Below are positions 13,391 to 37,487 of a stretch of DNA of 37,487 nucleotides, piece after piece. Source of the DNA: an uncultured Oscillibacter sp. (lineage in GTDB: Bacteria > Bacillota > Clostridia > Oscillospirales > Oscillospiraceae); assembly GCA_947382875.1 (NCBI GenBank), contig CANDBG010000023.1, positions 1-37,487 on the forward strand, written 5' to 3'. The translations under genes and the position numbers were made by a program. The stretch's first letter is position 1, and each line of letters starts with the position of its first letter. The notes beneath the pieces are model-generated. The model worked only from the letters and a program-made list of their open reading frames with translations. It did no database searches and had not been told where the DNA came from.

Positions 13391-14249
13391 CGTCCATTTT
13401 CCCAAACACGCCGTATTCGTTCCAAATATCTTCCAATTCTGCAAAGGTTGCGGAAAGGTCTTCTCCCCGTCGGCTCGCCAGGGCGACCAGCAGCGCGTTG
13501 ATCAGCGACAGCGGTGCGACCATCGAATCCACAAAGGAGATCATTTCACAGGGGGCAAGCAGCGCGCCGTCGGACATTTGGTAGATTGGCGAAAGTGTGT
13601 TGTCCGTAATTGCAATGATTCCTGCGCCCCGGTCCCGGGCGAATTTCACCGTATTTACGGTAATCCGGGAATATCGCGGAAAGCTAATGGCGATCATAAC
13701 GTCCTCTTTGCCAATGCGGAAAAGCTGTTCAAAAATCTCGCCTGCTGAACTGGACTGCACCAACGAGACGTTTTGAAAAAGCAAATGCATATAGAAATGG
13801 AGGTATCCCGCCACGAAGGAAGACGACCGGACGCCTAATATATAAATGTGCTTAGCGGCTCGGATGCGGTCGGCGGCCCGGTTGAAATCTTCCCGGTCGG
13901 CTTCGCTGACCACCTGCCGGAGCTTGTCGATGTCCGATTGCAGTACCGCACCCAGCAGGTCCGGACTGGAAAAGATATCTCCTGCCGCCTGAATTCGCTG
14001 GGTGGAGGTCAGACGGCTCCGCAGCATTTCCTGTAAAGCCCGCTGCATATTGGGATAGCCGTCGTAACCCAGCTCAAAGGCAAAACGCACCACCGTCGAT
14101 TCGCTGACGCCCACCAGACTGCCCAAACGACTGGCAGTCATGAACGCGGCCTTGTCGTAATGCTCCAAAATGTAATCTGCAATGCGTTTTTGACCTCTGG
14201 AAAATCCGCTCCGTTTGCTTTCGATTGTATGTAAAATGCTCTTAGCCAC
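13383..14249 (-). CDS. MurR/RpiR family transcriptional regulator
   Basis: 288 residues. The N-terminal RpiR helix-turn-helix domain (about 1-78) includes LVGVSESTVVRFAFELGYDG; the SIS sugar-phosphate-binding domain spans about 120-262 (YILGVRSSSFVAGYLH and the SISFPRYS-type loop near 193). It probably senses a phosphosugar, but no sugar gene is nearby to name the ligand. GTG at 14249 follows GAGGGA. It is the first gene of the unit running through cmk, plsC and ispH-S1 and occupies the place where dxs usually follows ispA. Confidence 0.92.
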   Translation of the reverse strand: MAKSILHTIESKRSGFSRGQKRIADYILEHYDKAAFMTASRLGSLVGVSESTVVRFAFELGYDGYPNMQRALQEMLRSRLTSTQRIQAAGDIFSSPDLLGAVLQSDIDKLRQVVSEADREDFNRAADRIRAAKHIYILGVRSSSFVAGYLHFYMHLLFQNVSLVQSSSAGEIFEQLFRIGKEDVMIAISFPRYSRITVNTVKFARDRGAGIIAITDNTLSPIYQMSDGALLAPCEMISFVDSMVAPLSLINALLVALASRRGEDLSATFAELEDIWNEYGVFGKMDDE

Positions 14250-14266
14250 GATGCTTCCCTCTTTTG

Positions 14267-14293
14267 AAGCGGCCCGGAACGGCCGGGCCGCTT
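14267..14293 (-). terminator. GC-rich 11-bp inverted repeat between ispA and the RpiR gene
   Basis: Perfect arms AAGCGGCCCGG / CCGGGCCGCTT (14267-14277, 14283-14293) with a 5-base loop. No real U-tract follows on the minus strand, and the hairpin lies downstream of the candidate RpiR promoter, inside its leader just before the ribosome binding site. It could be a weak ispA terminator or an attenuator-like structure. Confidence 0.5.
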
Positions 14294-14308
14294 TAATCGT
14301 TCTCTGTC

Positions 14309-14343
14309 ATTGTACCACAAACCGAATAGAATTCATACGAATT
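14309..14343 (-). promoter_or_regulatory. Candidate promoter and operator of the RpiR gene
   Basis: On the minus strand an extended -10, TGGTACAAT, occupies 14309-14317. The -35 is poor. A dyad AATTC-4 bases-GAATT (14330-14343) lies at the -35 position and could be an autoregulatory site. Confidence 0.5.
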
Positions 14344-14366
14344 ATTTCTGGCAGGTAAAAATGGTT

Positions 14367-15263
14367 TCAACGGCTACGTTCCGCAAGATTGTCCGCCAGT
14401 GCGCAGAGAAACGCTGTTCCGCCCGGCCAGGCGCCGGTTTCCAGAGCGGCCTTCGCCTGGGCTGTATAGGTCAGCACACGACGGGTACACTCCTCCACGC
14501 CCAGCAGCGTAACGTAGGTGGTCTTGCAGTTGGCGGCGTCCGATCCAACCGGTTTGCCTAATGTTTCCGTGGTGGACGTTGCGTCCAGAATGTCGTCCTG
14601 AATCTGAAACGCCAGACCTAAATTTGTGGCGTAGTCCCGCGCCGCGTTGATACAGGCGTCGTCAACGGCCCTGCGGCCCATGGAGGCAACCACCCCCATC
14701 ATACATGCCGCCCGCAAAAGAGCGCCGGTTTTTTTGTCGTTGATGCTGGTGAGCTGTTCCTCCGTACGAGGGGCATCTGCGGGCAAAGTATCCCAGTATT
14801 GCCCGCCGCACATACCGTCTAAACCGGCGGCCTCGGCCAGCAGTTTTGCCGCCAGCGCCTTGGAGGCTCCGCCCCCGTGCCGCCATGTGCCGTCAGCGGA
14901 CAGAACTGTTTGAAACGCCGCCGCTTGCAGTGCGTCGCCTGCCAGCGTGGCGGTGCATTCACCGAACATTTTATGGTTTGTCAGTTTTCCGCGGCGAAGG
15001 TCGTCGTTGTCCATGCAAGGCAGGTCATCATGAATCAGCGAATAGGTGTGAAGCATTTCCACGCCGCACCCGAAATCCAAGCCTTCCTCCGGGGTCCCCC
15101 CTGCCGCCTCACAAAACTTCATCGTCAAAACAGGCCGGATGCGCTTGCCGCCTGCAAGAAGGCTGTAACGCATGGCTTCCGCCAACCCGCCGCCGGGGAA
15201 AAACGTTGCCAGACGGCTCTCCGCCAACTGACGGGCCGTATCCAATTCTTTTGTAAAATCCAT
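14367..15263 (-). CDS. ispA: IspA-type farnesyl/geranyl diphosphate synthase
   Basis: 298 residues. Condenses IPP with allylic diphosphates. The first Asp-rich motif is HDDLPCMDNDD (Asp79, Asp80 and Asp85) and the second is FQIQDDILD (Asp223, Asp224, Asp227). GGKRIRP at 38-44 binds IPP. Short-chain specificity is inferred from the two-residue insertion in the first motif, typical of bacterial FPP synthases. It is three bases after xseB. Usually dxs follows; here an RpiR gene follows after 117 bases. Confidence 0.95.
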   Translation of the reverse strand: MDFTKELDTARQLAESRLATFFPGGGLAEAMRYSLLAGGKRIRPVLTMKFCEAAGGTPEEGLDFGCGVEMLHTYSLIHDDLPCMDNDDLRRGKLTNHKMFGECTATLAGDALQAAAFQTVLSADGTWRHGGGASKALAAKLLAEAAGLDGMCGGQYWDTLPADAPRTEEQLTSINDKKTGALLRAACMMGVVASMGRRAVDDACINAARDYATNLGLAFQIQDDILDATSTTETLGKPVGSDAANCKTTYVTLLGVEECTRRVLTYTAQAKAALETGAWPGGTAFLCALADNLAERSR

Positions 15264-21780: not shown

Positions 21781-22278
21781 TCATATCAGTAAAATCACCA
21801 GCAGCGCCGCTCCGGAAAACCAGAGGGCTGTCGCCCGCTTCTCCTCCTCCGGACGTTTGCGTTCGGATTCCTCTGCGCTTTTAGCGAGCCGGTACGCAAC
21901 AGCGGAAACCGCTTTGCAAACCGTTTCCTCGTCGCCTTGCAGGTCGGCGCCCAGGGCGGCAACGGCAGATTTGTCATCGTCATTCAAGGGCAGCGCTTCC
22001 GCCAGGACCGGCCAGATTTCCGGAAGATTTTCGCCTTCCCGCACGGCGTTTGCTGCGCCGGAAAAAAATGCAGAGGCGTCTGGTCCGCAGCTGGAAGCCA
22101 GCATGTCCAAGAGAACCGGAAGGGGCGTCCGGGCCATACGAACGTGCTCAGCCATTCGCCGGAAGGCGGACAGAAAATCAAACAGGGTATCCCGTCTCCG
22201 GCGGTGCTCGGCAAGCTGCAAACACCGGGCAAGTACGCCGCCGCCCAGAATACAAAGACTTCCCAACAGTTTCAGCAT
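21781..22278 (-). CDS. spoIIIAB: SpoIIIAB
   Basis: 165 residues. Hydrophobic N-terminus (about 2-17), a helical cytoplasmic domain related to type II secretion GspF/PilC proteins, and a C-terminal membrane helix (about 150-165). Residues about 78-110 (GENLPEIWPVLAEALPLNDD) are family-like. The gene overlaps spoIIIAA by 7 bases. Confidence 0.93.
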   Translation of the reverse strand: MLKLLGSLCILGGGVLARCLQLAEHRRRRDTLFDFLSAFRRMAEHVRMARTPLPVLLDMLASSCGPDASAFFSGAANAVREGENLPEIWPVLAEALPLNDDDKSAVAALGADLQGDEETVCKAVSAVAYRLAKSAEESERKRPEEEKRATALWFSGAALLVILLI

Positions 22279-23186
22279 GGCAGCTCCTCCACCTCGTAGG
22301 CCCGTCCGCTTTCGTCAGAGAGAATACGGATGGATATGCGAAAGATCTGATCTTCCAGAAGTTGACGGTAGAGCGGCTTCTGCTGCAATTCCTTCACGTT
22401 TGCGGCGTGGATGGTCGCCAGAAGCCCCACGCCGCAGCCCGCGGCCATAGAGATGGCCGTCAGGTCCGGACGGACGGTGATTTCATCCACGGCAATGATT
22501 TGCGGATTCATGGCCCGCAGGACAATCGGAATGCCCAATGCTTTGGGACAGGCGTCCAATACGTCGGTGTGAGGGCCGACGTCCATCTGCGGCTCGCCCT
22601 GGTACATTACCGCCACTTCCCCCCGCTCGTCGACGAGGGAAACCCGCTGGGGCGCAAGACCGTTTGCACCTTCGGACAGACAGCGCACCAAATCCCGCAG
22701 CAGTGTTGTTTTGCCGCCGCCCGGCGGCGAGAGAATCAACGTGTTTGCAAAACGGCCGTCTGGAAACAGCAGTGGTACAAGCGGTTTCGCAATTCCCTTA
22801 CGCTCCCGCGCAATGCGGATGGCCGCTGACGAGAGGTTTTTCAGGTTTGTGTTTATACCGTCCTTCATGACGGCGGTGCCGCACAGGCCAACCCGAAAAC
22901 CTCCGCGGACGGGCAGAAATCCTTCCCGCAGCGATTCCGAGGCCGCGTAGCGGGAAAAATCCGTAGCCAGATCACAGAGAGTTTCCAGTTCCTCCGGTTC
23001 GACGGTCACATCAAAAGGCATTTCGCCGTTTGGCAGGAGAACGGTCAGGGGCTGTCCCGCCCGGAGGCGGATTTCTTCTGCGATTGCCTTTTGTTCTCCT
23101 GGCAGGGCCAAGGCCCGCTTTCGGAGGCGGTTCGGCAGAATGGACACAGCGTCTTCATAGCGGGAAATATTCAAATTCTTTGGCAA
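22272..23186 (-). CDS. spoIIIAA: SpoIIIAA ATPase
   Basis: 304 residues with the chosen start. Secretion-type ATPase of the mother-cell channel. The Walker A loop SPPGGGKTT is at 153-161; LVDERGE follows near 189 and ATIHAANV near 265. TTG at 23186 is chosen: AGGGGG lies upstream, the length is normal for the family, and the 51 codons above it run through the promoter region. An ATG would be far too early or too late. First gene of the spoIIIA operon. Confidence 0.93.
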   Translation of the reverse strand: MPKNLNISRYEDAVSILPNRLRKRALALPGEQKAIAEEIRLRAGQPLTVLLPNGEMPFDVTVEPEELETLCDLATDFSRYAASESLREGFLPVRGGFRVGLCGTAVMKDGINTNLKNLSSAAIRIARERKGIAKPLVPLLFPDGRFANTLILSPPGGGKTTLLRDLVRCLSEGANGLAPQRVSLVDERGEVAVMYQGEPQMDVGPHTDVLDACPKALGIPIVLRAMNPQIIAVDEITVRPDLTAISMAAGCGVGLLATIHAANVKELQQKPLYRQLLEDQIFRISIRILSDESGRAYEVEELPC

Positions 23187-23215
23187 GGGAGGTTCCCCCT
23201 TTCTTTGGTTACTCC

Positions 23216-23245
23216 ACTCTATGACGGCTCGTCCGGCTCTATACC
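23216..23245 (-). promoter_or_regulatory. Candidate sigma-E promoter of the spoIIIA operon
   Basis: On the minus strand, GGTATA (23240-23245), 16 bases, then CATAGAGT (23216-23223). The -10 fits the sigma-E pattern CATAnAnT and the -35 has the ATA core. It lies 30-60 bases before the TTG start. spoIIIA is a sigma-E operon in B. subtilis, so the match is expected, but the -35 is not perfect. Confidence 0.6.
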
Positions 23246-23272
23246 AGGTTTGTCCAAAAAAATTTATGAAAA

Positions 23273-23302
23273 AAGTCTGGAGCTTGAAAAAGCTCCAGAC
23301 TT
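23273..23302 (-). terminator. Strong terminator of the alaS-HIT transcript
   Basis: Perfect 13-bp arms (23273-23285, 23290-23302) with a GAAA-type loop; the minus strand continues into T6. It separates the alaS unit from spoIIIA. Confidence 0.95.
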
Positions 23303-23343
23303 CGGAAACGCATAGATGGACGAATGATCGCAGTAACAATGAA

Positions 23344-32746: not shown

Positions 32747-33880
32747 TCAGGCCCGTTTTGCCAGCTGTTCGCTGTACTGACTGCGGAACGCCGCAAAGGT
32801 TCCCTCATCCAACGCCTGCCGGATACGAGCAGTCAGTTCGTTGTAGAAATACAAATTGTGCAGTACCGCAAGACGCAGCGCTAACACCTCGTCCGCTTTG
32901 AACAGGTGACGCAGATAAGCCCTGGAATAGCTGCGGCACAGCGGACAGCCGCAGCTCTCGCTGACGGGGCGGGAATCGGCGGCATATTTTTCGTTCAGGA
33001 TGTTGACCGTTCCCTCCCAGGTGAACAGTTTGCCGTGACGTCCATTGCGCGAAGGCATCACGCAGTCGAAAAAATCCACCCCGCGGGCGACGGCTTCAAT
33101 AATATTGCTGGGCGTGCCTACGCCCATGAGATACCGGGGTTTTTCCTTTGGCATATGCGGTTCCACAGCGTCAATGATATTGTACATAATCTGTGTGGGT
33201 TCGCCAACTGCCAGACCGCCAATGGCATAGCCGTCGCAGTCCAGTTTGGCAATTTCGTCCATATGCCACGCCCGCAGATCAGGAAAGGTTGCTCCCTGGT
33301 TGATGCCAAACAGAAGCTGTCCAGGGTTCAAGGTGTCCGGCAAAGCGTTCAGGCGGTCATGCTCTGTTTTGCAGCGGGCTAACCAACGCAGGGTACGCTC
33401 ACAGGAAGCTTTTGCATACTCGTAAGTGGCCGGGTTTTCGACGCACTCATCAAATGCCATGGCAATGTCGCTGCCGAGGTTCGACTGAATCTGCATGGAT
33501 TCCTCAGGACCCATGAAAATTTTCCGGCCGTCGATGTGGGAGGAAAAATAAACGCCTTCTTCCTTGATGCGCCGCAGGGATGCAAGAGAAAAAACCTGAA
33601 AACCGCCGGAGTCGGTAAGAATCGGGCCGTCCCAGTTCATGAACGTATGAAGCCCGCCCAGCTGACGAACCAGGTTGTCGCCGGGACGGAGATGTAGATG
33701 GTATGTGTTGCTCAGCTCGATCTGACAGCCTACATCCCGCAGGTCCTGAGCGGACACGCCGCCCTTGATGGCCGCCTGGGTGCCGACGTTCATGAAGACT
33801 GGCGTCTGTACAACGCTGCCGTGGGTGCAGGTAAATTCACCGCGGCGGGCGCGGCCTTCGGTTTTCAGCAGGTGGAACAT
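32747..33880 (-). CDS. tgt: Queuine tRNA-ribosyltransferase
   Basis: 377 residues, normal length. Exchanges guanine-34 for preQ1 in tRNAs with GUN anticodons. The Asp of ILTDSGGFQVFSL is residue 90; SRNGRHGKLFTWEG follows, and CGCPLCRSYSRAYLRHLF gives the zinc-binding cysteines. ATG at 33880 has GGAG in front; the 12-codon extension has none. There is a long leader (about 240 bases) if the promoter at 34129-34157 is used. Queuosine synthesis genes (queA etc.) are not nearby. Confidence 0.97.
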   Translation of the reverse strand: MFHLLKTEGRARRGEFTCTHGSVVQTPVFMNVGTQAAIKGGVSAQDLRDVGCQIELSNTYHLHLRPGDNLVRQLGGLHTFMNWDGPILTDSGGFQVFSLASLRRIKEEGVYFSSHIDGRKIFMGPEESMQIQSNLGSDIAMAFDECVENPATYEYAKASCERTLRWLARCKTEHDRLNALPDTLNPGQLLFGINQGATFPDLRAWHMDEIAKLDCDGYAIGGLAVGEPTQIMYNIIDAVEPHMPKEKPRYLMGVGTPSNIIEAVARGVDFFDCVMPSRNGRHGKLFTWEGTVNILNEKYAADSRPVSESCGCPLCRSYSRAYLRHLFKADEVLALRLAVLHNLYFYNELTARIRQALDEGTFAAFRSQYSEQLAKRA

Positions 33881-33932
33881 CTTGTTTCTCCAATCTATTT
33901 CATTATGGACCGTCAAAAAACGGCGAGGTTCT

Positions 33933-33969
33933 GCTGCTCGGCTGGGAGTATATCCATCAGCCGAGCAGC
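33933..33969 (-). other. 12-bp inverted repeat in the tgt leader
   Basis: Perfect arms GCTGCTCGGCTG / CAGCCGAGCAGC (33933-33944, 33958-33969) with a 13-base loop. On the minus strand no U-tract follows; on the plus strand TTTC does. It may be a leader structure for tgt, or a terminator for a plus-strand transcript from a weak TTGACC-16-TATAAC match (33984-34011). Confidence 0.5.
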
Positions 33970-34028
33970 TTTCATACTCACATTTGACCTAATATATATC
34001 TCACTTATAACGGATACAGGTCAACGAC

Positions 34029-34109
34029 TTACCATCCAGCTTTACTAAGAACTTCAGAGATTTCTTTGAACACTTGCCGATCATGATAAGGTCCTCTCAC
34101 TGCATCCAT
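34029..34109 (-). CDS. Possible 26-residue leader ORF or gene remnant
   Basis: ATG at 34109 to TAA at 34029. The translated product is soluble, helix-like (RQVFKEISEVLSKAGW) and resembles the C-terminus of a larger protein. Its start has no well-placed ribosome site (AAGGG is 15 bases away); an alternative ATG inside (34085) in another frame has GAGAGG. No family recognised. It may be a leader peptide of the tgt transcript. Confidence 0.25.
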   Translation of the reverse strand: MDAVRGPYHDRQVFKEISEVLSKAGW

Positions 34110-34128
34110 TATAATAATTATTACCCTT

Positions 34129-34157
34129 ATTATACTGCCCTGACGTTGAAAAGACAA
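34129..34157 (-). promoter_or_regulatory. Sigma-A promoter towards tgt
   Basis: On the minus strand, TTGTCT (34152-34157), 17 bases, and a perfect TATAAT (34129-34134). It is 250 bases before the tgt start, and no other good promoter lies between. Confidence 0.65.
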
Positions 34158-34479
34158 CAGTTTTTTGCATCTCCGCGCGCTATGGGTACTGGCGTTTGCG
34201 TTAGTTTTATAAATACCTCATGTCAGCAGATCAGCAAAAACAGAGTATGTTATGGGGCTGCAATGTGGCATGACGGATGTGCAGAGCACTGGGAAACCAA
34301 GGAATTTGACCAGGACTCTGTGCCCTTCGAGGTGACCTGGAGTTGTCCTGGGCCTGTTATCATTTAGTTTTCCAAGATGCACCCGACTTTGCAGGTGGAA
34401 GCTTGGCGGGCAGATGAAAATGTGGGAAGCAGCACTCTTTCATTTTTGTGCCAATCTGCCTCATCAATAAACTTTTTCG

Positions 34480-34533
34480 TTCGACAAAAAATGACAAATT
34501 TCGACACCATATATGTAGTATCATAATGTCGAA
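34480..34533 (+). promoter_or_regulatory. Three Spo0A-box matches at the promoter of the exported pair
   Basis: TTCGACA occurs at 34480-34486 and 34500-34506 and its reverse, TGTCGAA, at 34527-34533; TGTCGAA is the core Spo0A box. Boxes 1 and 2 are 20 bases apart, two helical turns. Box 2 lies where a -35 would be for the CATAAT -10 at 34522-34527, and box 3 abuts this -10. That geometry is like Spo0A-activated promoters such as spoIIG, though repression by box 3 is possible. Confidence 0.65.
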
Positions 34534-34567
34534 CACTAGCGAAAAATGAAGGAAAGAGGTCACAGCT

Positions 34568-35083
34568 ATGAAAACAACTATCCAAAAGAAATGGAAAGCC
34601 TGGATCCTGCCTGTTTGTATCGTGTGCGCCGTTTTAGCGCTGGCCATTTTTTTCTTTACGCGCCAGCGCTTGGGTAATCCGTTGGAATTGGAGAATAATG
34701 CCACAATGGGTATCCTGCCAGGCATCGACCCTGCTCAGAGGCAAGCGGAACTTCAGCAGTTGCTGGACGAGAGCATGATCTCCTTTTCCATCAATACTAG
34801 TCCTGTTTTTGAGACAGGCGGGTCTGAGGGAAACCTGATGCTGGAAAATCCCGCTAATAACGCCAAGCTGTTGGTGGTAGAAATCTACATAAACGATACT
34901 CAGGAACTAATCTATGAATCAAAAGCCCTTCCCGCAGGCTCCTATATTGAAAATGTCCGGCTGGATAAGTTATTAGAGCCCGGCAGCTACGAAGCCACCG
35001 CCTATTTTAAGGCATATCGGGAATCGGACCACTCTTACATCGGTCAGGCGGGCGCGGACATCACACTTTCCGTGCTCAGCTGA
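34568..35083 (+). CDS. Membrane-anchored exported protein, unknown family
   Basis: 171 residues. A basic N-terminus and one membrane helix (about 12-30) leave the C-terminal 140 residues outside. A helix at 54-68 leads to a beta domain (about 70-171) of repeated strand pairs, e.g. NLMLENPANNAKLLVVEIYI and GSYEATAYFKAY, typical of an Ig-like beta sandwich. Related unnamed proteins are frequent in gut Firmicutes, often beside secreted beta proteins. ATG at 34568 has AAAGAGGT. It is 51 bases before the next exported gene, behind Spo0A boxes. Confidence 0.78.
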   Translation: MKTTIQKKWKAWILPVCIVCAVLALAIFFFTRQRLGNPLELENNATMGILPGIDPAQRQAELQQLLDESMISFSINTSPVFETGGSEGNLMLENPANNAKLLVVEIYINDTQELIYESKALPAGSYIENVRLDKLLEPGSYEATAYFKAYRESDHSYIGQAGADITLSVLS

Positions 35084-35134
35084 TGCTGGCAGTTCTCCGT
35101 GGATACAGGCATTCATAAAAAGGAGGATTTGCAC

Positions 35135-35710
35135 ATGAGACAGAAAAAACTTTTCAGCTTTCTGGTTGTTGCGCTGGCGACCACCCTGCTTATGGTCAAC
35201 GCTTACGCGGTGGGTTCCTACCAAGATAAAAACCTTCCTTTGGGTTCCTCCAGCGAAGTGCTGATGGTTGGCGAGATTGAACCCACTATCATGTCCGTTA
35301 CTATTCCGTCCTATGTTCCATTCCACATTAGCAGGTCCATTGAAGGAGACAATAAAATAATCTCTCCCCGTGTCACTATCACCAGCCATTCCGGCGTTCC
35401 TGTCAGCGTGGATGTGGCTTATACGGATGTAAACCTTAGCGGCCTGAAGGGGACTTCTTGGAGTAATGGGCCAAACGTAGGCACAAACCAGATTGCCGTT
35501 GGTTTCCAGCCGGAAACACTATCCAATCAGCTTCCTACCTCCCTGGATGGAACCAAATGGCTCCTCGCAAACACGGCGCAGAGTCTGAACCTTACCAACC
35601 TGAATCCCTATGGCAGTTCCACCCTCTATGTTGTAGGCACATTGGGTTCTAGTGTCCCGGAGGATAGTTCCTTCACAGTCACACCCACCTTTGTCGTAAG
35701 CAAAGCATAA
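35135..35710 (+). CDS. Secreted beta-rich protein
   Basis: 191 residues. A clear Sec signal peptide (residues 1-25, RQKK then a hydrophobic core, AYA before the likely cut) precedes a mature part that is almost all beta, low in Cys and rich in Ser, Thr, Asn and Val. SVTIPSYVPFHISRS near 55-70 and SPRVTITSHSGVPVSVDVAY are strand pairs of an Ig/WxL or TasA-like sandwich; the end is FTVTPTFVVSKA. No sortase motif or known domain. ATG at 35135 has AAGGAGGA. Second gene of the Spo0A-box unit. Confidence 0.8.
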   Translation: MRQKKLFSFLVVALATTLLMVNAYAVGSYQDKNLPLGSSSEVLMVGEIEPTIMSVTIPSYVPFHISRSIEGDNKIISPRVTITSHSGVPVSVDVAYTDVNLSGLKGTSWSNGPNVGTNQIAVGFQPETLSNQLPTSLDGTKWLLANTAQSLNLTNLNPYGSSTLYVVGTLGSSVPEDSSFTVTPTFVVSKA

Positions 35711-35773: not shown

Positions 35774-35806
35774 AGACAGCCGGAAGATAAGTTCTTCCGG
35801 CTGTCT
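35774..35806 (+). terminator. Terminator after the exported pair
   Basis: Perfect 14-bp arms (35774-35787, 35793-35806) with a 5-base loop, followed by ACCTGTTTTGCG on the plus strand. It lies between the convergent secreted-protein and epsG genes; a U-rich tail is present but not immediate. Confidence 0.7.
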
Positions 35807-35908: not shown

Positions 35909-36964
35909 TCATGGTGAAATCGCCATGCTCCATACCCCATGGTAGGGATATACACCATGAAAGCCTCGACTGGCTGCAAACAGGAAGTAAACGGCACCGC
36001 AGGACAGCAACAGACCAGTCCATATCCTGGGATCTCTCCGCTCACCTGTCTGTAAAACAGCCTCCGGGAGTGCCAGAATAGTAAAAAAAGCGGTATAAAT
36101 AGAGAGACGCTCCAAGATGAAATGCTGCGTGATAAAGATTTGGATCAGCATCGTATAAAATACACTGTTCGCTAGGACTGGAGATGCAGAGGGGTCCTGT
36201 ACTGTCCGTCGGATCAAAGGCAACGTAAACAAAAAACATCCGAAAGGTTCCAAAAGATAAACGGCACTATTACCCTGCCAGTATCTTCCTTCTGTGTAAG
36301 AACTGTAACTTGAAACAAACCGGAAAAGCAGCTGGAATATGGGGTCGCAGAACAAATATATACCTCCGGCAGTCAAAGCGGCTATGGCATAATGCCGTTT
36401 GGAAATCCGAAGATTCAACAGAACATAAAACGGGAACAGAATCATGGCCGATTTATGAAAGCAGGCCGCCAAAAACACAATGCCACAGAACGGCAGAAAT
36501 CGGCGGCGGAGCAAAAAGGGATACGCCCACAATATCAAAGCGGCAGCGAGAGATTGCCGCAAAAGATTCATGCTCATCGCGAAGTACTGCAATGTCAAAA
36601 ATAAATAGACACTTAGAGATGGAGAAGGGGAATAGCGGCCAATCCAAACAAAAACCAGGACCGTAAACAGCAGGTGGAACAAAAACAGAAACTCGCGATA
36701 ACCACCTCCCCAAAAAGCCACTATCCAATTTAGAAGGACAAAGCCAGGCTCCATCAGCCGTAAACTGGACAGTCCCCCCTCGGTAATTTTTTGAAAGATT
36801 GCCTCATAAGAACGGTAATCAAATCCGATAACATACCGAAGGGACGACAAAATCCAGCAGGCCAGCCCCATTACCAGCAAAAATGCCCATCGATATCCCG
36901 GTCTTCGCCTCAGTGACACTCCTCCTGCTAAACTGGCTCCGATTAGTCCGAAATAAGGCAGCAT
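35909..36964 (-). CDS. EpsG-type polysaccharide polymerase
   Basis: 351 residues, about ten membrane helices. Family features: RYVIGFDYRSYEAIF near 43-57, LRQSLAAALILWAYPFL near 134-150, and an HKSAMIL motif near 169-175, as in B. subtilis EpsG and Wzy-like polymerases that extend exopolysaccharide at the membrane. ATG at 36964 has AAGGAGGAAG. No other polysaccharide genes are in the window, so the partner glycosyltransferases are unknown. It is convergent with the exported pair. Confidence 0.85.
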   Translation of the reverse strand: MLPYFGLIGASLAGGVSLRRRPGYRWAFLLVMGLACWILSSLRYVIGFDYRSYEAIFQKITEGGLSSLRLMEPGFVLLNWIVAFWGGGYREFLFLFHLLFTVLVFVWIGRYSPSPSLSVYLFLTLQYFAMSMNLLRQSLAAALILWAYPFLLRRRFLPFCGIVFLAACFHKSAMILFPFYVLLNLRISKRHYAIAALTAGGIYLFCDPIFQLLFRFVSSYSSYTEGRYWQGNSAVYLLEPFGCFLFTLPLIRRTVQDPSASPVLANSVFYTMLIQIFITQHFILERLSIYTAFFTILALPEAVLQTGERRDPRIWTGLLLSCGAVYFLFAASRGFHGVYPYHGVWSMAISP

Positions 36965-37003
36965 CCTCTTCCTCCTTCCGCATTTGTAGTCCTTATTTTC
37001 TTT

Positions 37004-37032
37004 ACTTTACCACTCTTTCTAACTAAATACAA
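37004..37032 (-). promoter_or_regulatory. Possible promoter of epsG
   Basis: On the minus strand, TTGTAT (37027-37032), 17 bases, TAAAGT (37004-37009); 40 bases before the start. It overlaps the end of the DnaC-like fragment. Confidence 0.5.
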
Positions 37033-37171
37033 GATCAAAAAAGCGCATAAGCGGGGAACCTTCTGGGATAGGTATTTTGCACTCTTTTCTGGTGTGACAC
37101 TTCCCACAACACAGGAAGCCTTCTTCATCGTAGTAGTCGCTATCAGACTTTCCGTTGCGCTGGGCTACCAT
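37019..37171 (-). pseudogene. N-terminal fragment of a DnaC-like ATP-binding protein
   Basis: 50 codons. The translation carries DSDYYDEEGFLCCGKCHTRK, close to the N-terminal Cys-x2-Cys zinc motif of DnaC-type ATP-binding proteins found in integrative elements. The downstream AAA+ part (Walker A and B) is absent; the frame ends in TAG at 37019-37021, where the epsG promoter begins. It is a relic, left of the recombinase fragment by 51 bases. Confidence 0.65.
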
Positions 37172-37222
37172 ATGATTACCGTCTATTAGGAAAACAAGCT
37201 GCCAGCATGGGATAGAAGCCGC

Positions 37223-37487
37223 TCAGACAGCCAAAGCGTTAGCAGCCTCGGTGTTGAGCTCGATGTATTCAACGATTTTGCGGAGCTCGTCGGCAAACTT
37301 GAAGCGGACGCTGATATTGCCGTTTTCATAGACCTTGATGTGGTCTACAAGCTCCACCAAAATGTCGCGGGTCAGACAGTCGATATTTTAATACTTCATA
37401 AAGGCTACCAGCGCAGGATGGGAATGATCCACGCCGTTTGCCAGTTCCGCCCGCTCCGCCGTCAGGTTTTCCAGTACAGCGGTCAGC
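37223..37487 (-). pseudogene. C-terminus of a large serine recombinase, with an internal ochre stop
   Basis: The minus-strand frame running into the window edge encodes the end of a Tn-type serine recombinase: NLTAERAELANGVDHSHPAL, then after a stop TLTRDILVELVDHIKVYENG-like sequence (here CLTRDILVELVDHIKVYENG) and NISVRFKFADELRKIVEYIE. TAA at 37388-37390 stands where homologues have Gln (CAA) in a YQNI motif, so the protein has lost its last 54 residues. The catalytic N-terminus lies outside the window. Element is probably inactive. Confidence 0.8.

Follow-up and report, generated by a model that had tools for sequence, protein, structure and literature searches.

Promoters controlled by Spo0A carry 0A boxes, the core of which is TGTCGAA, with contacts at G2, C4 and G5 (PMC3485338). 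Invertons with neighboring tyrosine recombinases are known in gut Clostridia, as exemplified by inverton group 139 (PMC11892184). Both kinds of control bear on a locus in contig CANDBG010000023.1 of an uncultured Oscillibacter sp., a stretch of 37,487 nucleotides (hereafter the window), in which two adjacent genes that we call P1 and P2 lie directly downstream of a cluster of exact 0A boxes. We favor, with fair but not high confidence, the view that these genes belong to an accessory cell-surface module, under Spo0A control in the window lineage and perhaps subject to DNA inversion in relatives. Six orthologous loci were compared, namely the window, L008 (Oscillibacter sp., JAAWGR010000007.1), L007, L075, L076 and L088, of which L075 and L088 represent one sister genus and L076 another.

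The 0A-box array upstream of P1

The original prediction placed three TGTCGAA-type boxes, two of them 20 bp apart and one abutting a -10 element, immediately in front of a two-gene unit. Indeed, all three are present as exact matches, directly before two co-directional genes (Table 1). The entire window holds four exact 0A boxes, and the three in the array all lie no more than 88 bases upstream of P1. When box starts were placed at random in a simulation using the window's own rate, three starts fell within 47 bp anywhere in the window with P ~4.5e-5. Because the degenerate sequence AATGACA lies between boxes 1 and 2, the array has a 10-bp period, and this triple scores 18/21 matches; 500 dinucleotide shuffles of the 300 bases upstream never attained that value. 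The full-length Spo0A encoded in the same genome aligns to the DNA-binding domain structures PDB 1fc3 and 1lq1 with identity throughout the segment SRVERAIRHAIEVAW, and judged by this alignment the protein retains the Bacillus recognition helix.

The spacing of the boxes is best viewed against the genus as a whole. A search for TTCGACA-N(2-24)-TTCGACA in 86 genus genomes, our own included, found at least one pair in 66 of them and 118 sites in total. Specifically, 68 of the 118 sites have N3 spacing (10 bp) and 13 have N13 spacing (20 bp), against a mean of 1.76 sites for each of the 21 remaining spacings. The window pair is of the N13 type, one of the two spacings favored in the genus. The Poisson value for the N13 excess, 5e-8, is too strong, since relatedness among the genomes and orthology of some promoters inflate it. 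Of the twelve other N13 sites that were read, no fewer than four stand before one type of open reading frame (ORF) (L194, L195, L196 and L199) and two before another (L198 and L200); these ORF types, recurrent in further species of the genus, are candidates for a genus-wide Spo0A regulon.

Such pairs are rare within the genome that carries the window, which has four: one each on contigs C22, C54 and C62, and the window pair. By reading, the C22 pair falls inside an apparent coding frame, the peptide of which G020 (the genome of L008) also retains, and the C54 pair inside a frame resembling that of a 2'-phosphotransferase. The C62 pair (N16) lies about 90-130 bases upstream of spo0A, depending on the choice of start codon. 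Thus, with the C22 and C54 frames as read, only spo0A and P1 are preceded by a pair that lies outside genes. Two exact pairs occur in G020 and two in G104 (the genome of L007), all of them away from the P1-P2 module.

A probable paired surface module with an EpsG-family neighbor

P1 and P2 had been described as a membrane-anchored and a secreted beta-sandwich-like protein, neither from a characterized family. By hydropathy, a single hydrophobic segment is present near the N-terminus of P1, and P2 begins with what resembles a signal peptide, in agreement with the anchored and secreted assignments. The fold description is reasonable for P1, of which residues 71-171 are modeled at block means of 76-92 pLDDT, but it is not borne out for P2, whose structure model has a mean pLDDT of 44.6. 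The most likely start of P2 is the ATG at 35135, which follows AAGGAGG, rather than that of the longer GTG ORF at 35099. P2 lacks a sortase-type LPxTG C-terminus and ends in FTVTPTFVVSKA. That the pair belongs to no characterized family also stands, in that neither protein has a Pfam match at E values up to 10. The one NCBIfam match, to P1, has an E value of 0.14 and is far under the cut-off. Among solved chains, sequence matches to the P1 or P2 family are confined to signal or helical stretches (best E values 0.15 and 0.019).

A third component of the locus, missed by the original prediction, is a gene for a membrane protein of the EpsG family (PF14897) beside the pair. Scores against this family are 175.3, 163.1 and 142.6 bits for the window, L008 and L007, respectively, with a cut-off of 30.1. 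An EpsG-family gene adjoins P2 in all six loci, the copies in L075, L076 and L088 being identified by tblastn only. It is convergent with P1-P2 in five loci and co-directional in L007 (4497-6946, reverse-strand numbering). A close copy (61-100% identity) is confined, among the 86 genus genomes, to the three that also carry P1; three further genomes yield nothing closer than remote matches (26-27% identity). The region of the window with the EpsG start (36901-37487) contains no exact 0A box. This conserved neighbor makes an envelope or matrix role for the pair more likely.

Table 1. Coordinates of the array, the module genes and the putative promoter switches; positions without a locus name are those of the window
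Feature	Position	Strand	Remark
0A box 1, TTCGACA	34480..34486	-	exact; pattern search
Degenerate middle box, AATGACA	34490..34496	-	completes the 10-bp-period triple
0A box 2, TTCGACA	34500..34506	-	exact; 20 bp from box 1, start to start
-10-like element, TATCAT	34519..34524	+	by reading; aligned with TATACT in L008
Alternative -10-like element, CATAAT	34522-34527	+	by reading
0A box 3, TGTCGAA	34527..34533	+	exact; inverted; abuts the -10
P1, 171 aa	34568..35083	+	one N-terminal membrane segment; predicted extracytoplasmic Ig-like beta domain
P2, 191 aa	35135..35710	+	signal-peptide-like N-terminus; no LPxTG; beta-rich by reading only
Hairpin AGACAGCCGGAAG/CTTCCGGCTGTCT	35774..35806	none	between convergent P2 and EpsG genes; terminator-like by eye
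EpsG-family (PF14897) protein	35909..36964	-	polytopic membrane protein; conserved partner
Putative invertible promoter, L075	9457-9764		adjacent tyrosine recombinase; before orthologous pair
Putative invertible promoter, L076	1602-1889		adjacent tyrosine recombinase; before orthologous pair
Putative invertible promoter, L088	2901-3185		adjacent tyrosine recombinase; before orthologous pair

Close copies of the module are scarce. P1 is found in three of the 86 genus genomes and P2 in two of 60 genomes in a search of relatives, our own included in both counts, and profile searches added close copies in the two sister genera. At greater distance, a three-row P1 profile has a match at an E value of 0.001 in 42 of 394 genomes sampled from the order. 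Of 20 P1 regions that were fetched, nine have, by a crude filter, a signal-peptide-type ORF of 120-360 aa close behind P1 (L057 being a doubtful case), and others carry longer ORFs. P2 homologues were recovered by profile in L012, L019, L023, L025 and L077-L080. Proteins with three SLH domains followed by a C-terminal P1-like domain adjoin P1-P2 pairs in L077 (6772-8130) and L079 (7216-8574). The P1-like domain of L079 is matched by hmmsearch at an E value of 6e-5 and by hhalign at a probability of 92.1%, and that of L077 by hmmsearch only, at 0.0016. Thus arranged beside secreted P2, the P1 domain seems to be held at the envelope by either a membrane segment or SLH anchors. Eighteen P2 members compared with Pfam at E values up to 1 gave four chance-level matches (best E 0.055), and 24 P1 members gave matches to 27 families (best E 0.0082), each family matching at most two members among the 25 of 27 families inspected. 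These searches point to a two-protein surface family that lacks a Pfam model and recurs in the order.

Promoters of the orthologous loci

In an unrooted tree of P1, P2 and EpsG, the window joins L008 (support 0.956), and the window, L008 and L007 are split from L075, L088 and L076 (1.000). L008 keeps a degraded box triple over the same 20-bp span (16/21 matches, reached by 0/500 shuffles), together with the -10-like TATACT at the place aligned with the window -10. No box array is present in L007, L075, L076 or L088, where the shuffle fractions are 0.3, 0.528, 0.946 and 0.964, respectively. Conservation of the boxes before orthologues had been proposed as a test that could refute Spo0A control. 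The outcome is favorable only in part, since L008 keeps the array in degraded form and the other four do not; the Spo0A reading thus holds for the window lineage rather than for the whole module.

Of greater interest, in related genera a probable DNA-inversion switch stands in front of this surface module. A tyrosine recombinase gene lies upstream of the pair in L075, L076 and L088 (PF00589 at 90.5, 84.1 and 83.7 bits, listed for L075, L088 and L076 as a group). Between recombinase and pair, inverted repeats of 20 bases at 95% identity (16 bases perfect) in L075, 21 bases perfect in L088 and 23 bases perfect in L076 enclose 276, 243 and 242 bases, respectively. In all three loci a promoter of the form TTGCGY-N17-TATGAT is located inside the repeats and is directed away from P1-P2; if inverted, its -10 would end 55-61 bases before the P1-side repeat. 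With a recombinase and a repeat-flanked promoter, P1-P2 look phase-variable in these loci, which have the anatomy of an invertible promoter. The window has no inverton-type repeats at its own locus, as positions 33880-34700 hold only inverted arms of 10-14 nucleotides; those spanning the promoter are 12 nucleotides at 92%, 10 at 90% and 14 at 79%. In L007, neither a box array nor inverted repeats were found.

The original prediction also suggested matrix or early sporulation surface proteins. The presence of spoIIIAA and spoIIIAB (PF19568 and PF09548; window 21781-23339, minus strand) indicates that the host has stage III sporulation genes. Sporulation is not specifically implicated, because the module occurs in 3 of 86 genus genomes whereas a Spo0A_C match occurs in 38 of 41. 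A matrix role of P1-P2 is plausible, and a role at the sporulation surface is conjectural. Regarding Spo0A_C itself, the genome that carries the window also encodes short proteins with this domain at C33:2513-2809 (121-aa frame) and C59:14877-15173 (133-aa frame), and has a partial match at C31:19235-19393. L008 encodes another at 14208-14774, about 6 kb from its module.

Proposed function, alternatives and known systems

We propose that P1, a membrane-anchored beta-domain protein, secreted P2 and the convergent EpsG-family membrane protein would together form an accessory envelope module of three genes. The 10-bp-period array overlaps the P1-P2 promoter, and Spo0A~P most likely controls it directly at starvation or entry into sporulation; when Spo0A~P is high, box 3, which covers the -10/start region, could bring in repression as well. 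In three relatives, the module instead has a putative invertible promoter, served by a tyrosine recombinase of its own, and there it appears to be switched stochastically. P1 would contact P2, most likely anchoring or receiving it at the cell surface, and EpsG may polymerize or attach a sugar polymer, which would link the pair to a glycan. The sequences directly show the order of the genes, the grammar of the boxes, the recombinase with its inverted repeats and the co-occurrence of the genes, whereas we infer Spo0A binding and its sign, DNA inversion, contact between P1 and P2 and the link to a glycan.

Spo0A control of the window promoter is likely because of the spacing grammar, the rarity of such pairs in the genome, the Bacillus recognition helix of the resident Spo0A and the degraded array in L008. 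Several observations weigh against this proposal. The array is kept in only one of five orthologues, L008, where it is degraded and box 2 has lost the C4 contact, and three of the four loci that lack it have a putative invertible promoter. The 118 pair sites stem from related genomes and hence are not independent, and a reversed control pattern matches more often in total (about 155 by column addition, as totals without spacing), so the signal is a spacing preference and not a count. The genome's own spo0A promoter, despite two exact boxes, fails significance (10-bp triple 13/21, matched by 0.34 of shuffles; 20-bp pair 0.324). Exact boxes are missing from most spoIIG loci in the genus (21 of the 25 that were read) and are thus no general mark of the Spo0A regulon; B. 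subtilis early-sporulation targets are likewise near-consensus, according to PMC3485338. The short Spo0A_C proteins, or the partial match, might use the same boxes. Regarding the surface module and its putative switches, there is no reliable model of P2, and the reverse promoter orientation was not found in any of the three assemblies, so that flipping is not seen.

A bolder version of our proposal can be entertained only tentatively: that promoter logic was exchanged for one patchy module, Spo0A in one lineage and random flipping in sister genera, with P2 a new matrix or surface fiber, P1 its wall or membrane receptor, and the pairing order-wide. Somewhat more doubtful is the idea that P1 and P2 are structural matrix or pilus-like parts that work like TapA-TasA, with P2 polymerizing. 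TapA-TasA and CalY fibers with their eps genes share with this locus an anchored and secreted pair, an EpsG-family neighbor and a Spo0A link, but there is no TasA or CalY sequence match, as P2 has no Pfam match and none is among the four chance-level matches of the 18 P2 members.

It is unlikely that the EpsG-family protein, instead of polymerizing an exopolysaccharide, serves as a glycan ligase for the glycosylation of P2. No polysaccharide cluster is evident by eye in the ORF lists of the window, L007, L008, L075 and L076 (most neighbors being listed there without a family search), and EpsG co-occurs with P1-P2 in the genus; however, this idea draws on PF14897 membership only, and the contigs are short. 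Less likely still, the box cluster is a product of chance or a relict and P1-P2 are controlled otherwise, for example constitutively. The absence of the array from four of five orthologues fits this explanation, but the low simulated probability of the cluster, the spacing grammar and the retention in L008 argue against it. Least likely, the boxes are bound by a short stand-alone Spo0A_C protein as a separate regulon: such ORFs exist on C33 and C59 and near the L008 module, but none is reported in the window's contig, their recognition segments differ (for example, WRAVERNIRTTSAIAW in C33 versus SRVERAIRHAIEVAW in Spo0A), and exact boxes also precede spo0A itself.

Returning to Spo0A control of a surface module, the closest regulatory counterparts are the Spo0A target promoters of Bacillus and Clostridioides, with which the window shares exact TGTCGAA cores, a phased tandem array, overlap with the core promoter and the recognition helix. 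Unlike them, the window array appears to drive uncharacterized surface genes of few relatives and is kept in one of five orthologues. WxL and WxL-interacting clusters likewise pair a secreted beta-type protein with an anchored one, and no WxL-type model is among the Pfam matches of the pair or its relatives (18 P2 members; 25 of 27 P1 families inspected). In the open-licence literature, Spo0A-controlled surface genes in gut Oscillibacter relatives seem little studied. The P1-P2 locus is a candidate Spo0A target outside core sporulation, and the genus-wide preference in 0A-box spacing could be used for regulon prediction.

The invertons of gut Clostridia, as presented in PMC11892184, share with L075, L076 and L088 inverted repeats, an internal promoter, an adjacent recombinase and surface-type cargo. 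The cargo here is P1-P2-EpsG, the likeness to group 139 is one of architecture only, and the window locus itself has no inverton. Together, these comparisons suggest that the same cargo has been given two regulatory solutions, a master regulator in one lineage and probable DNA inversion in others.
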